The notes under the pieces: generated by a model
Told to the model about the DNA's origin: nothing
Database searches by the model: none
Seen by the model: the letters and a program-made list of their open reading frames with translations, nothing else
Shown: positions 32,175 through 37,030 of the stretch, one piece after another
How the letters are laid out: each line of letters begins with the position of its first letter
Numbering within the stretch: position 1 is the first letter of the stretch
Made by a program: the position numbers and the translations under genes
NCBI GenBank assembly: GCA_903916195.1
Contig: CAIWVP010000038.1
Span: 1-45,146 of the forward strand
Length of the DNA: 45,146 nucleotides
From: an uncultured Verrucomicrobiota bacterium
GTDB lineage: Bacteria > Verrucomicrobiota > Verrucomicrobiia > Limisphaerales > UBA9464
Reading direction: 5' to 3'

Positions 32175-32663
32175 ATGTTGCGCGACGATCACATGCTCAG
32201 GCTCGCGGAGCAGGTCGGCTCCGCCATCGCGGCCGGCTTGGCCGAGGGCGGGCCCAGAACGACGACCGGGATGTCGGATGACCTCGCGACGCTCTGCCGG
32301 CAGCACGTCGGGATCGATCTGACCATCGTGCTCGGCCTCTCGCCCGACGGCCTGCGCGAAGTGCTGGCGCAATCCGGTCCGTCCTCGGTTCCGAAGGGCG
32401 CCGCGCTCGCCGAGATCCTGCTCGCGCAGGGCCGCTTGGCCGAGCTCCGTGGCGACCGCGCCGTCGTCGTGCCCTGCCACGTCCACGCGTTCCATCTGCT
32501 CCGGACCTTCGGGCCGTCGGTCCGCGCGGCGGACCTCGGCGTGCACGAGGCCAAGATCGCCGCCACCGCCGACCGGTTGCGCGAGCTCGGGCTTTCCGCC
32601 TACGTCGCGCAGGAGGCCTCCCGGCGCCCGGATGCCGCCGGTTTTTCCGGCCCCTTGTCCTGA
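32175..32663 (+). CDS. DUF6483-like hypothetical protein in the ABC operon
   Basis: The 162-residue soluble protein begins MLRDDHMLRLAEQVGSAIAAGL, which resembles my recollection of DUF6483. It continues with several amphipathic helices and a C-terminal Pro/Arg-rich end. No catalytic motif is seen. It lies nine bases after the ATPase and its TGA overlaps the permease ATG (TGATG), so it is translated with the exporter genes. Function is unknown. The family link is tentative; that it is a real gene is fairly sure. Confidence 0.65.
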   Translation: MLRDDHMLRLAEQVGSAIAAGLAEGGPRTTTGMSDDLATLCRQHVGIDLTIVLGLSPDGLREVLAQSGPSSVPKGAALAEILLAQGRLAELRGDRAVVVPCHVHAFHLLRTFGPSVRAADLGVHEAKIAATADRLRELGLSAYVAQEASRRPDAAGFSGPLS

Positions 32664-34051
32664 TGAGCCTCTGGAACGCCGTCATCGTCGGTCTGAAGGA
32701 GATCTGGGCGCACAAGTTCCGCAGCCTGCTCACCATGCTGGGGATCATCCTCGGCGTGTCGTCGCTCATCGCCATGAGCGCGCTCGTCACCGGCATGGAG
32801 AAGGGCGCCAAGGAATCCCTCATCGCCGTCGGCGGCCTGCAGAAGATGCGGGTCGAGGTGGCGCCGTTGCCGGTCGACCAGCGGCATCTCCGCGATTTCG
32901 CCACCGGCGTGACCTTGCGCGACGTCTACGCGCTCCAGCGGAGCGCGCCCGAGATCCTCGAGGTCTCTCCGCAGATGCGCCTCGAACCGCAGCCGACCTT
33001 GGCGGCCAACGGCAAGATCTACCGCACCTGGATGATCTCCGGCGTCTGGCCGGTGCAGTTGGAGATGATGGAGCACACCGTCGAGCACGGCCGCATGTTC
33101 ACCGCGTTGGACAACGAGCTCGCGCGCAACGTCTGCGTCATCGGCGACGGTGTCCGCGACGCCCTATGGGGCAGCCCCGAGGAGACCGGCGAACCGGTGA
33201 TCCCCATCGGCCGCGAGATGACCATCAGCGGCTATCCCTTCACGGTGGTCGGCATGTTCCAGCACTACGAGAGCGAGCAGGAACGCAAGACCCGGGAGCT
33301 GGCCGAGGCCGAGGCGGCGCAACTCAAGGCCGCAGGGGTGACGAATTCCGCGACCGGCCCGAAGCGCAGCCGCGGATGGGGCGGTTCGGGACGCGGCGGC
33401 TGGTCGCCGTTCCGGATGAAGAACAGCACCGTCTACCTCCCGCTCAACACCGCGTGGCTGAAACTCAAGGCCGGCCTCACCAACTCCCCGGCCGAGCCCA
33501 AGCTGAGCGACATGGAGATCAAGGTGCGCGATGTCGCGCAGCTCGACCTCGCCATGACGCAGATCCGCAACGTGCTCATGGTGACCCATCGCGGCATCGA
33601 GGACTTCTCCTTCCGCACGCAGGAGGACTGGGCGGAGCAGATCGGCACCTTCATCAGCAACGCGCGCCTCAGCGGCGGCATCATCGCCGGCATCAGCCTG
33701 CTCGTCGGCGGCATCGGCATCATGAACATCATGCTCGCCAGCATCAGCGAGCGCATCCGCGAGATCGGCATCCGCAAGGCCGTCGGTGCCGGCGGCCTGG
33801 ATATCTTCACCCAGATCGTCGTCGAGAGCACGGTGATCGCCGTCGTCGGCGGTCTGGCCGGGCTCGCGACCAGCATCGGTCTCATCCGCGTGATCACCTA
33901 CGTCACGCCGACCGACAACGCGCCGATCGTGACCCTCACGTCGATGCTCCTGGCCTTCGGCGCCAGCGTGCTCATCGGCGTGCTCGCCGGCCTGTTCCCC
34001 GCCATCAAGGCGGCGCGGATGAACGTCATCCAGTCGCTGAGGTATGACTGA
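32663..34051 (+). CDS. MacB-like ABC permease 1
   Basis: The 462-residue permease has one N-terminal membrane helix after GLKEIWAHKFRSLLTMLGII and a large periplasmic domain (about 45-330). The FtsX-like block of three helices begins at GGIIAGISLLVGGIGIMNIM, with IREIGIRKAVGA as the coupling loop. The periplasmic domain contains an unusual basic Gly/Trp stretch (GPKRSRGWGGSGRGGWSPF) around residues 230-250. It is closely related to permease 2 at 34733. Confidence 0.92.
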   Translation: MSLWNAVIVGLKEIWAHKFRSLLTMLGIILGVSSLIAMSALVTGMEKGAKESLIAVGGLQKMRVEVAPLPVDQRHLRDFATGVTLRDVYALQRSAPEILEVSPQMRLEPQPTLAANGKIYRTWMISGVWPVQLEMMEHTVEHGRMFTALDNELARNVCVIGDGVRDALWGSPEETGEPVIPIGREMTISGYPFTVVGMFQHYESEQERKTRELAEAEAAQLKAAGVTNSATGPKRSRGWGGSGRGGWSPFRMKNSTVYLPLNTAWLKLKAGLTNSPAEPKLSDMEIKVRDVAQLDLAMTQIRNVLMVTHRGIEDFSFRTQEDWAEQIGTFISNARLSGGIIAGISLLVGGIGIMNIMLASISERIREIGIRKAVGAGGLDIFTQIVVESTVIAVVGGLAGLATSIGLIRVITYVTPTDNAPIVTLTSMLLAFGASVLIGVLAGLFPAIKAARMNVIQSLRYD

Positions 34052-34675: not shown

Positions 34676-34732
34676 GCGTCCGTGTCAACGCGTGCTGGAC
34701 ACTCCGCTCCACATACCCTGCTCCGCGTTCCC

Positions 34733-36088
34733 GTGAACCTCCTCAACACCATCCTCATCGGCCTGAAGGAGATCTGGGCGCACAAGTTCCGGAGCCTGCT
34801 GACGATGCTCGGCATCATCCTCGGCGTCGCCTCGCTCGTGGGCATGGCCGCCATCATCAAGGGCATGGAGAACGGGATGAAGGAGACCATGGTCGCCATG
34901 GGCGGAGTCGACAAGGTGCTGCTCCGCATGCAGCCCGTCCCGGCGTGGCAGGACCACCTCGCCGACCAGGCCCCGGGCCGCACGATGGCCGATGTCATGG
35001 CCTTGCGGCGGAGCGCTCCCTTGATCCGCGTCGTCTCGCCCGAGATGGCCATCGAGGAAATGACCCTGAGCCGCGCAGGACGCCACGTGACGCCTTCCGA
35101 ATGCGCCGGCGTCTGGCCCGCGGTGCTGGAGATGAACCTCCACACGGTCGCGCACGGACGCTTCTTCAACGACATCGACGAGACCGAGGCCCGCAGCGTG
35201 TGCGTCATCGGCACCGGCATCCGCGACGAGCTTTTCGGCAAGCCCGACGAGGTCGGACGCGAGATCGTGCCGCTGGGCGAGCGGATCCAGCTGAACGGCC
35301 AGCCGTTCACCATCGTGGGCATGTTCGAGCACTACGAGAGTGAGCAGGAATCCAAGGAGCGCGCCCTCCAGAAGGTCCAGGGCAAGCAGGCGCAGACCGG
35401 TCCGAAGCGCCAGAAGGGCTGGGGCAAACGGGGCGGATGGGCCTTCTGGCGGAAGAACATGACCATCTACATGCCGCTCAACACCGCGTGGGTGAAGTTC
35501 CGCGCCATCGGCGACAAGGACGGCATCCTCGATCCCCGCCTGAGCGACATCGACATCAAGGTCGTCGGCCTCGACCTGTTGGAGCCCGCGCTCCAGCAGG
35601 CGCGCAACGTCCTGATGTCGACCCATCACGGGATCGAGGACTTCACCTTCGAGACCCAGGAGAACCAGCTCGAGAACATCAACAAGCAGATCGCCAACGC
35701 GCGGCTGAGCGGCGGCATCATCGCGGTGATCAGCCTGCTGGTGGGCGGCATCGGCATCATGAACATCATGCTCGCCAGCATCAACGAGCGCATCCGCGAG
35801 ATCGGCACCTGCAAAGCGATCGGCGCGACCGGCCTCGACATCTTCACCCAGATCCTGGTCGAAAGCGTCGTCGTGTCGCTGGTCGGCGCGGCGCTTGGCG
35901 TGGTGGCGAGCTACGCCTTCGTCGAGGGGCTCCAAGTGCTCACGCCGTCGGCGAACACCCCGATCATCACGACGTCCGCGATGTTCGTCGGCGTCGCGTT
36001 CAGCGCCCTGGTCGGCGTGCTCGCCGGGTTGATCCCGGCGTTCAAGGCCGCCCGCCTGGACCCCATCCAAGCGCTCCGGTACGAGTGA
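34733..36088 (+). CDS. MacB-like ABC permease 2
   Basis: The 451-residue protein is a clear paralogue of permease 1: the shared block GLKEIWAHKFRSLLTMLGII opens both, and both have GGIGIMNIMLAS in the FtsX block. A basic Gly/Trp periplasmic stretch (GPKRQKGWGKRGGWAFWRK) sits at the same place. A GTG at 34733 aligns with the permease 1 start; the ATG at 34682 would add 17 unrelated residues reaching into the antitoxin promoter. It shares the single ATPase at 31437, or forms a heterodimer with permease 1. Confidence 0.9.
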   Translation: MNLLNTILIGLKEIWAHKFRSLLTMLGIILGVASLVGMAAIIKGMENGMKETMVAMGGVDKVLLRMQPVPAWQDHLADQAPGRTMADVMALRRSAPLIRVVSPEMAIEEMTLSRAGRHVTPSECAGVWPAVLEMNLHTVAHGRFFNDIDETEARSVCVIGTGIRDELFGKPDEVGREIVPLGERIQLNGQPFTIVGMFEHYESEQESKERALQKVQGKQAQTGPKRQKGWGKRGGWAFWRKNMTIYMPLNTAWVKFRAIGDKDGILDPRLSDIDIKVVGLDLLEPALQQARNVLMSTHHGIEDFTFETQENQLENINKQIANARLSGGIIAVISLLVGGIGIMNIMLASINERIREIGTCKAIGATGLDIFTQILVESVVVSLVGAALGVVASYAFVEGLQVLTPSANTPIITTSAMFVGVAFSALVGVLAGLIPAFKAARLDPIQALRYE

Positions 36089-36151: not shown

Positions 36152-36610
36152 ATGAGCAAAGCGTTCACGCGCGAAGACGACGACGCTCCGGAACCGCCTC
36201 CATGGCCGCGCCGGGTTTCTTCGCTGCCCTTCGGCACGAAGAACTACATCACCGCGGACGGGGCCGCCCGGATGCGTGACGAACTGGCCCGCCTCGTCGA
36301 GGTCGGGCGTCCTTCGATCGCCGTCGTGACGGGGCATCCCGATGGGATCGAGCGTCGATCCGCCGTCGACGCCCGCATCGTGGCCATCCAGCAGGTGCTC
36401 GGATCCGCCGTGGTCGTCGCGTCACCGTCACCGCCTTGGGAGGAGGTCCGGTCCGGTGCCACCGTCGGGACCCGCGACCGTCGCGGCGAGACGGCCACCT
36501 ACCGGATCGTCGGCGTGGACGAGACCGACCTGGGAAATGACCATGTGAGCTGGATCTCTCCGGTGGCCAAGGCGTTTTTGAACGGGCGGATGGAACGGAA
36601 GGGGCAGTAA
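36152..36610 (+). CDS. GreA/GreB-family factor with shortened tip, truncated C-terminus
   Basis: The 152-residue protein opens MSKAFTREDDD with LPFGTKNYITADGAARMRDEL, the GreB-like N-terminus, and continues with RIVGVDET and SPVAKAFLNGRM of the FKBP-like domain. The coiled coil is shortened: between LVEVGRPSI and the second helix only TGHPDGIERRS remains, without the acidic GDxSEN tip that Gre factors insert into RNA polymerase. The expected last ~20 residues (the GDxxxxxxPxGE strand) are missing: the final KGQ-stop is encoded by the first bases of the repeat at 36601. It may still bind polymerase but should not stimulate transcript cleavage. Confidence 0.75.
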   Translation: MSKAFTREDDDAPEPPPWPRRVSSLPFGTKNYITADGAARMRDELARLVEVGRPSIAVVTGHPDGIERRSAVDARIVAIQQVLGSAVVVASPSPPWEEVRSGATVGTRDRRGETATYRIVGVDETDLGNDHVSWISPVAKAFLNGRMERKGQ

Positions 36611-36703
36611 TCAGTGAACAGTGAACAGTAGGTCAGTACGGCGGCTGCTGGTCGGTCGGGTTGGCTCACTGGATACTGGACACTGGATACTGCTTACTGC
36701 CCC
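36601..36703. repeat. Inverted repeat of CAGT-phased heptamers
   Basis: The arms 36601-36630 and 36674-36703 are inverted copies matching at 24 of 30 positions, both ending in GGGGCAGTAA outward. Inside each arm, CAGTNNN repeats every seven bases (CAGTGAACAGTGAACAGTA; CACTGGATACTGGACACTGG). The left end overlaps the Gre-like gene and supplies its stop codon. Confidence 0.75.
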
Positions 36704-36782
36704 TCCACGCCTTCCGCCTTGCCTTTCCGGCCCGCGGGTGACCTAGCCGGGTGAGAGCCCCGGCGCCGTCGTCGGCGCCCCT

Positions 36783-36899
36783 AAGTTTCAGGTCGGGGAT
36801 GGTCTCGGTCTCAGGTTCCAGGTTCAGGTCCCAAGTTTCAGAGGCAACGGAGCCGGTTCCCCAACCTGCAACTTCAAACCTCCAACCTGCAACTCAACC
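36783..36899. repeat. Second phased inverted repeat, CAGGTT type
   Basis: A left part rich in TTTCAGGT/TCAGGTTCCAGGTTCAGG (36783-36840) faces a right part of CAACCTGCAACTTC/CAACCTGCAACT (36861-36898), roughly its reverse complement. It is less regular than the neighbouring element. With it, it fills most of the 420-bp gap before the deacetylase gene; the rest holds nothing recognisable. Confidence 0.55.
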
Positions 36900-37030
36900 G
36901 CCCCCATCTCCGCCTTCCTGGCGGCGACGAGGACCTGGAGATCACCGGGATCCGGTACCGCTGAGGTGCGCTTCGGGCGACCGGGCAACTTGGCCGTTCC
37001 CCTCGGCCTTGGACGCTGGTAAGCATCGCC

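Follow-up and report, generated by a model that had tools for sequence, protein, structure and literature searches.

Within the window, by which we mean the whole 45,146-nucleotide stretch of DNA that was analyzed, a reading frame for a GreB-like protein of 152 amino acids is followed by two palindromic arrays of seven-base repeats and then by a separate piece of Gre-like coding sequence (Table 1). The Pfam GreA_GreB family (PF01272) matched the frame above its threshold (40.4 bits against a cutoff of 26.9) over positions 4 to 53 of the 77-position profile only, while GreB models covered about 120 residues and the NCBIfam greA and greB matches stayed under their curated cutoffs. As in GreA and GreB, PF01272 forms the C-terminal domain, and a coiled coil is predicted together with a C-terminal beta domain. 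The last codons, aag ggg cag taa (positions 36599 to 36610), read K-G-Q-stop, and the frame ends where an imperfect 103-bp inverted repeat starts, just as an earlier note on this DNA had described. Upstream lie two tandem MacB-like permease frames (positions 32663 to 34051 and 34682 to 36088, the second being the one compared with Pfam), a pair that looks old because the nearest relative matches the second frame twice, at 93.9% and at 53.3%.

Table 1 Features of the interrupted Gre-like gene in the window
Feature	Positions	Strand	Basis and remarks
Truncated GreB-like frame, N-terminal part of the interrupted gene	36152..36610	+	ORF, profile matches, alignment to relatives
Inserted stretch, 300 nt net relative to L017	36594..36893	+	Alignment with L017, codon register; borders may be off by a few bases
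Heptad hairpin 1, CAGTNNN type	36601..36703	.	Source of the TAA stop codon at 36608-36610
GC-rich linker between the hairpins	36704..36782	+	Sequence comparison within the genome
Heptad hairpin 2, RGGTYNM type	36783..36899	.	Right edge overlaps the uncertain insert border; coordinates approximate
Severed 3' end of the Gre-like gene, LRLPGGDEDLEITGIRYR-stop	36908..36964	+	Translation; matches sister LRLPGGDEELEITGIRYR

The nearest relative (locus L017, from a Verrucomicrobia metagenome genome; the same gene is L002 in genome G003, the genome of the window being G000) carries an unbroken, repeat-free gene for 170 residues ending in NGRIGQRVRLRLPGGDEELEITGIRYR, with about 78 to 79% amino acid identity to the protein of the window. 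Both flanks are colinear between the two, and their alignment at about 36594 to 36893 gave no clear loss of target. In codon register, LRLPGG comes after 252 codons in the window but after 152 in the sister, so the insertion amounts to 300 nt net. No target duplication was seen at the site by eye, although the sister has diverged and a short one could be missed. The missing C-terminus was not deleted but kept, LRLPGGDEDLEITGIRYR-stop being found downstream of the insert. The proposal that a repeat was inserted in the 3' part of the gene is thus strongly supported, with two amendments: the 103-bp repeat is real, but the inserted stretch is larger and holds a second, different heptad hairpin; and where one strand of about 20 residues had been expected to be absent, the C-terminus is indeed missing from the frame, but it comprises about 22 residues and two strands and is still encoded downstream.

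Comparison with homologues, which the earlier note had proposed, points the same way. Besides the intact gene of the nearest relative, the C-terminal strands were present in 77 of 80 relatives from genome contigs (alignment read by eye); the other three either run off the contig (L051) or are frame-disrupted (L066 and L086), and none of the 80 is a short homologue ending at this position without a repeat. A natural short Gre variant was therefore rejected, and so was a frameshift or a deletion of the C-terminus, because the end was located downstream. A chimeric contig is unlikely given the colinear flanks, while misassembly within the repeat itself is possible. The genome of the window contains two further Gre C-terminal domains (L247, G000:C118:50653-50874, and L249, C121:20900-21130) in open frames of 735 and 578 amino acids, perhaps fused proteins.

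In the predicted structure of the intact relative (mean pLDDT of 84.7, 22 sequences), the residues lost hold the last two strands, 150 to 155 and 158 to 168. With two predicted beta strands of the FKBP-like domain gone, the gene is probably dead or dying, and the truncated product is probably not functional. Between window and sister, dN/dS was 0.46 for the Gre-like gene and 0.15 for its ydjC neighbor at similar dS (0.28 and 0.21), a comparison of two sequences from which the lineage responsible for the raised value cannot be told; amino acid identity was 78% for the Gre-like protein and 94% and 93.9% for two neighbors. Among 73 conserved columns, 15 deviate in the window and 10 in the sister, the median for the family being about 7; nine departures are common to both, one is found in the sister alone and six in the window alone, two of these six being codons altered by the insertion itself, and the level of the window lies within the family range (highest, 31%). 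From these comparisons, we read the Gre-like copy in the window as a gene that is losing or has lost its function.

The acidic pair at the coiled-coil tip (GDxxEN) has a functional role in GreA and GreB, of which Rnk and Gfh1 are tip-altered relatives. The earlier note had found these residues missing, and alignment to 1grj and the 80 relatives confirmed it, the GDLKENAEY segment of 1grj having no counterpart in the window. The acidic tip is present in 1grj and in all eight loci titled proteobacterial or Oligoflexia; it is missing in every one of the 72 non-proteobacterial loci, intact genes included, of which 71 bear titles of Verrucomicrobia lineages and one, L038, is titled "uncultured bacterium." Unlike GreA and GreB, then, the subfamily loci (the 72 non-proteobacterial ones among L017 to L096, and positions 36152 to 36607 of the window) have a shortened coiled coil without the acidic tip, to which the window copy adds the loss of two C-terminal strands. 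Judging by the alignment, the loss of the tip is an old subfamily trait independent of the insertion, and with such a coil the subfamily is probably unable to stimulate RNA cleavage by the usual route. The further suggestion that this copy, lacking the tip, may act as an anti-cleavage or competitor factor is unsupported as stated: the tip being missing across the subfamily, its role is a subfamily question, and the window copy looks like a broken gene. That the short protein works as a truncated Gre-like competitor seems very improbable to us, even though the frame is open upstream of the insert, the YRIVGVDE and SP.A motifs remain and the subfamily tip loss would fit a non-cleaving factor; two domain strands are lost in the predicted structure, amino acid change is faster than in the neighbors and none of the 80 relatives shares the end.

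In hairpin 1, the left array reads CAGTAAT CAGTGAA CAGTGAA CAGTAGG and the right array ACTGGAT ACTGGAC ACTGGAT ACTGCTT; the palindrome runs from GGGGCAGTAA to TTACTGCCCC, and its outer 31-nt arms are 81% complementary. Folded as RNA, positions 36594 to 36712 reached -57.6 kcal/mol against a shuffle mean of -38.6 kcal/mol (z = -5.4; 0 of 200 shuffles as good), while the whole insert folded as DNA was only moderately better than shuffles (z = -1.9; 1 of 100). As DNA or RNA, hairpin 1 folds into 5-bp stems with small symmetrical internal loops at 7-nt steps, the fixed CAGT letters pairing and the variable letters being often unpaired. Hairpin 2 has its left array at about 36783 to 36842 and its right array, CAACCTGCAACTTCAAACCTCCAACCTGCAACTC, at about 36860 to 36899. 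The first part of the linker (36710 to 36747) shares 89% identity with the tail of another CAGT hairpin (G000:C196:35697-35734). That locus (L098, about 35640 to 35740) was the only other copy found with the linker of the window and, by eye, its left flank TGGAACGGARGGGGCAG; it is a possible donor or sibling of the window hairpin. Elsewhere in its own genome, the insert had only short matches, mostly heptads, with no single conserved element sequence, and no known RNA family was found within it at Rfam gathering thresholds.

The element belongs to a genome-wide class whose hairpin arms use a genome-specific vocabulary of degenerate heptads. Three successive CAGTNNN units gave 82 matches in the 4.39-Mb genome of the window and 17 for the reversed pattern, and RGKTYNM units gave 85 and 3, all counts being of overlapping matches, not elements. 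The reversed control TGACNNN is not neutral, since it is itself a heptad enriched in some genomes, such as G214 (0 CAGT versus 387 reversed matches) and G246 (24 versus 507). The units are degenerate, and inverted pairs occur at 12 sites of the genome; some arrays consist of a single direct run in which one unit predominates (for example, on C207 and C122), and there are perfect runs in which, for example, CAGTCGT or AGGTCGA is repeated many times. All 19 CAGT hairpins were ordered CAGT...ACTG and none the opposite way; 12 of them are from the own genome and the other 7 occupy the corresponding sites in relatives, so that they represent 12 independent sites. No constant core common to the copies was seen, their lengths vary and their loops are locus specific. 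Upstream of one array (L118, G000:C23, about 2600 to 2880), another dispersed-looking repeat, TTGCAACCCGC / GTTTCAAACCTGCGCTACA, was noticed by eye, which is not of the heptad kind.

When the 80 loci (704 kb), which had been retrieved solely for their Gre gene, were tested without any preset vocabulary, 13 of them contained period-7 arrays. There were 17 such arrays in all, one of which (in L032) spans a masked N stretch, and 7 was the commonest period among 4 to 23. Period 6 came next with 8 arrays, the other codon-multiple periods 9, 12 and 18 gave 6, 6 and 7, and periods 4, 5, 8, 10, 11 and 13 gave 0, 1, 2, 0, 0 and 1; none of the period-7 arrays lay in the eight proteobacterial loci, whose genomes held one CAGT match in total. 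The period-7 words in these loci included GTCCAAA, GGTCGGA, GTAATCA, GAGTAGC and TTGGAAC, among others. Across the phylum, 111 of 288 genomes had a CAGT match and 177 had none; at the places listed, the variable letters were NGT in most of G069, NYA in G249 and mostly NNG in G196 and G333. Twenty stretches of other genomes gave 10 period-7 runs in 5 of the 20, a low yield due in part to their shortness, and no heptad arrays were found in the stretches of several high-count genomes (for example, G316, G344 and G262).

To compare the same sites within the genus, the joined flanks of ten elements were searched in eight genomes, each from a different species and most of them metagenome assemblies, and 20 places were inspected visually; not every site was comparable in every genome, and no place in a relative was listed for the L189 site. 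Element-free places were found for the Gre and L185 sites in G003, for lpxB in G004, for leuS in G007 and for the L099 site in G006, the last site being occupied in four species. The lpxB array is common to G000 and G003 and absent in G004. After a sugar-permease-like gene (a label which, like "trxB-rhodanese," is a reading of the sequence, not a search result), CAGT hairpins of differing order and length stand in G000, G003, G004 and G002, and CGATCTN heptads stand in G007. In leuS, GCAGGTT-type arms were seen in G000 and CCAGACC/TGGGGNN-type heptads in G004 and G002, so that, with the empty place in G007, this position (L236 and L237 versus L110 and L246) has three states in the genus. Hairpins at shared sites differ by 7-nt indels, the aminotransferase array is shorter in G003 (L231), and the flanks of L161 lie 1.5 kb apart in G003 with other sequence between them (L234). 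Sites common to several species could be old and immobile.

Because 7 and 3 have no common factor, three identical units show every codon of the unit in every frame, and units bearing TGA or TAA therefore halt translation in any frame: CAGTGAT-like units stop all frames in both directions, while GGGTCTC or AGGTTCC stops none. This property of the CAGT type explains the ending of the Gre-like frame, whose stop is the third codon of the hairpin, and translation likewise meets a stop within a CAGT array in two more frames, that of L186, which Pfam identifies as a histidine kinase, and that of L132. Arrays lay within long coding-like frames in 1 of 18 cases for the CAGT type and in 11 of 22 for RGGTYNM (Fisher p = 0.004); the list is deduplicated and incomplete (the arrays of L184 and L185, for example, were lost, and L190, at a contig edge, and L149, a double count, were left out), and its ORF calls rest on GC content by codon position, so some frames may extend upstream of the true start. 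One Pfam domain encloses the array in DUF7133 (L158) and in Aminotran_3 (L193). The array of lpxB (L101; about 204 to 236) directly follows the best LpxB stretch (22 to 198), that of leuS (L110; about 500 to 509) precedes the LeuRS catalytic stretch (536 to 598), and that of uvrA (L160) is in frame with no domain spanning it; in L102 and L175 the array is outside the domain, L195 has no domain nearby and L166 has no Pfam match. The Gre case thus appears to be the harmful end of a general pattern. About 37 residues of LpxB are encoded by the in-frame heptad array, also in a second species (L227).

Several known systems resemble these arrays in part. Rickettsia palindromic elements have one conserved element sequence per family, unlike the window insert with its short, mostly heptad matches; their in-frame insertion into protein genes is paralleled here (LpxB, LeuRS, DUF7133 and the aminotransferase by frame and Pfam, UvrA by frame). 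They are mentioned alongside the REP and CGTC palindromes that go with RAYT transposases, and Opitutus terrae, a member of the Verrucomicrobia, is reported there to be highly enriched in GTAG repeats (PMC3733652). REP sequences are likewise short dispersed palindromes after or within genes, but their families carry a GTAG or CGTC tag, whereas the present elements have only the 7-nt unit in common, vary in length and core and mostly lack GTAG. Membership in the REP/RAYT group was rejected because GTAG was found at 2 of 38 ends by eye and heptads flanked none of the four Y1 loci.

Closer in unit length are the TAACTGA heptamer direct repeats of Beggiatoaceae, Cyanobacteria and Bacteroidetes (MacGregor 2015, PMC4679880). 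As described there, they share with the present arrays tandem 7-nt units (TCAGTTA on the other strand, one letter from TCAGTGA), a mixture of related heptamers in some species, a mostly intergenic location with few copies in reading frames, 7-nt indels between close strains and no known mechanism. They are direct repeats, with one inverted case, and lie near start codons in the main genome, whereas the Verrucomicrobiota arrays are often inverted pairs, in several cases follow stop codons, use genome-specific vocabularies and occur in frame in conserved genes. In the Nostoc tRNA-Leu(UAA) intron, the P6b hairpin stems consist of degenerate 7-nt motifs, TDNGATT or NNTGAGT, which change in 7-nt steps and in which one motif class replaces another at the same site, as here (PMC4476775); that case is one RNA-gene locus in cyanobacteria, and the present one involves numerous sites scattered through genomes of another phylum. 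No average enrichment in bacteria was reported by a survey of short tandem repeats, and the words heptamer and heptanucleotide are absent from the part of its text available (PMC12699852). Heptamer direct repeats are thus already known elsewhere, whereas no account of palindromic, vocabulary-switching heptad elements in Verrucomicrobiota was found among the ranked results of searches covering open-licence papers.

Overall, the best explanation, to which we give a probability of roughly 0.88, is that the Gre-like gene was split by a compound heptad-hairpin insertion belonging to a genome-wide element class, whose spread we infer. The common ancestor with the L017/G003 lineage would have had an intact gene, which the insertion of two heptad-repeat hairpins with a GC-rich linker would then have split. 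A process working in trans, which either generates hairpins or uses existing ones, may deliver the copies, and slippage that adds or removes 7-nt units may remodel them afterward; selection would leave stop-bearing copies between genes and stop-free copies inside them. The repeat at the Gre-like gene is likely to be mobile. How such copies arise can be explained in several ways. One tentative possibility is that MITE- or REP-like palindromes are moved in trans by a hairpin-recognizing Y1/IS200-type tyrosine transposase, the heptads being secondary slippage. The hairpin form, the purine-rich ends (GGGGAAG/CTTCCCC) of many copies, presence or absence between relatives and the C196 copy with the same linker and, by eye, left flank TGGAACGGARGGGGCAG would fit, and a Y1 gene occurs in 29 of 29 genomes with at least 20 CAGT matches versus 213 of 288 overall (hypergeometric 9e-5, counts by eye), a correlation that ignores genome size and kinship. 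Against it, heptad arrays were found in the flanks of none of the four Y1-transposase loci of the own genome (up to about 1.5 kb on each side), GTAG stands beside the arm base at only 2 of 38 hairpin ends, and the copies have no common core or fixed length and have locus-specific loops. Those loops, which by eye seem better kept than the arms between G000 and G003, are accommodated instead by an origin in place, in which short palindromes present by chance gain heptads on both arms through replication slippage and template switching, without mobility; the 7-nt indels at shared sites and the long perfect runs of CAGTCGT and AGGTCGA also suit it. We consider this origin rather doubtful, since it leaves unaccounted both the use of one vocabulary across many sites of one genome and another in another genome and the 300-nt compound insertion with a linker common to another locus. 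Moreover, arms were not measurably more complementary within elements than between them (Wilcoxon p = 0.19, n = 19; word test p = 0.27, n = 12; low power), which is a weak argument against copying between arms and would permit heptads to be added to each side independently; that arms were copied from each other is unsupported by these low-powered tests.

It is also conceivable, but unlikely, that the hairpins are kept as RNA signals after stop codons (terminators or 3'-end stabilizers), the Gre case being accidental. By eye, several hairpins directly follow a stop codon and separate genes of the same direction, the one hairpin tested folds strongly as RNA and the same site is kept in up to four species, but such a role would not apply to the in-frame copies in lpxB, leuS, uvrA and the aminotransferase gene, and several sites are element-free in relatives. 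By analogy, and with a distinctly low probability, an activity of the phylum might extend both 3' ends left by a DNA break or nick with species-specific heptads, copied from a few templates in a telomerase-like manner, rejoining then giving an inverted pair of arrays with one vocabulary but independent order; this would match the fixed CAGT...ACTG order, the lack of measurable copying between arms, the locus-specific loops and a genome-specific vocabulary replaceable at a kept site.

Returning to the insertion of a heptad-hairpin element as the preferred reading, the Gre case is a clean example, with an insertion in one species and a nearest relative without it. Should the frequency seen in the samples hold for the class as a whole, many Verrucomicrobiota would have a process that writes seven-base palindromes into and between genes, by which conserved proteins would be extended by repeat-coded peptides and others ended early; the different heptad vocabularies at one site across species are hard to explain by ordinary transposition or slippage alone. 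Among six verrucomicrobial genomes, three had no CAGT matches and 13 to 16 reversed ones, one had 18 CAGT matches, the sister genome had 58 and Chthoniobacter flavus Ellin428, a named isolate carrying the heptads, had 173.
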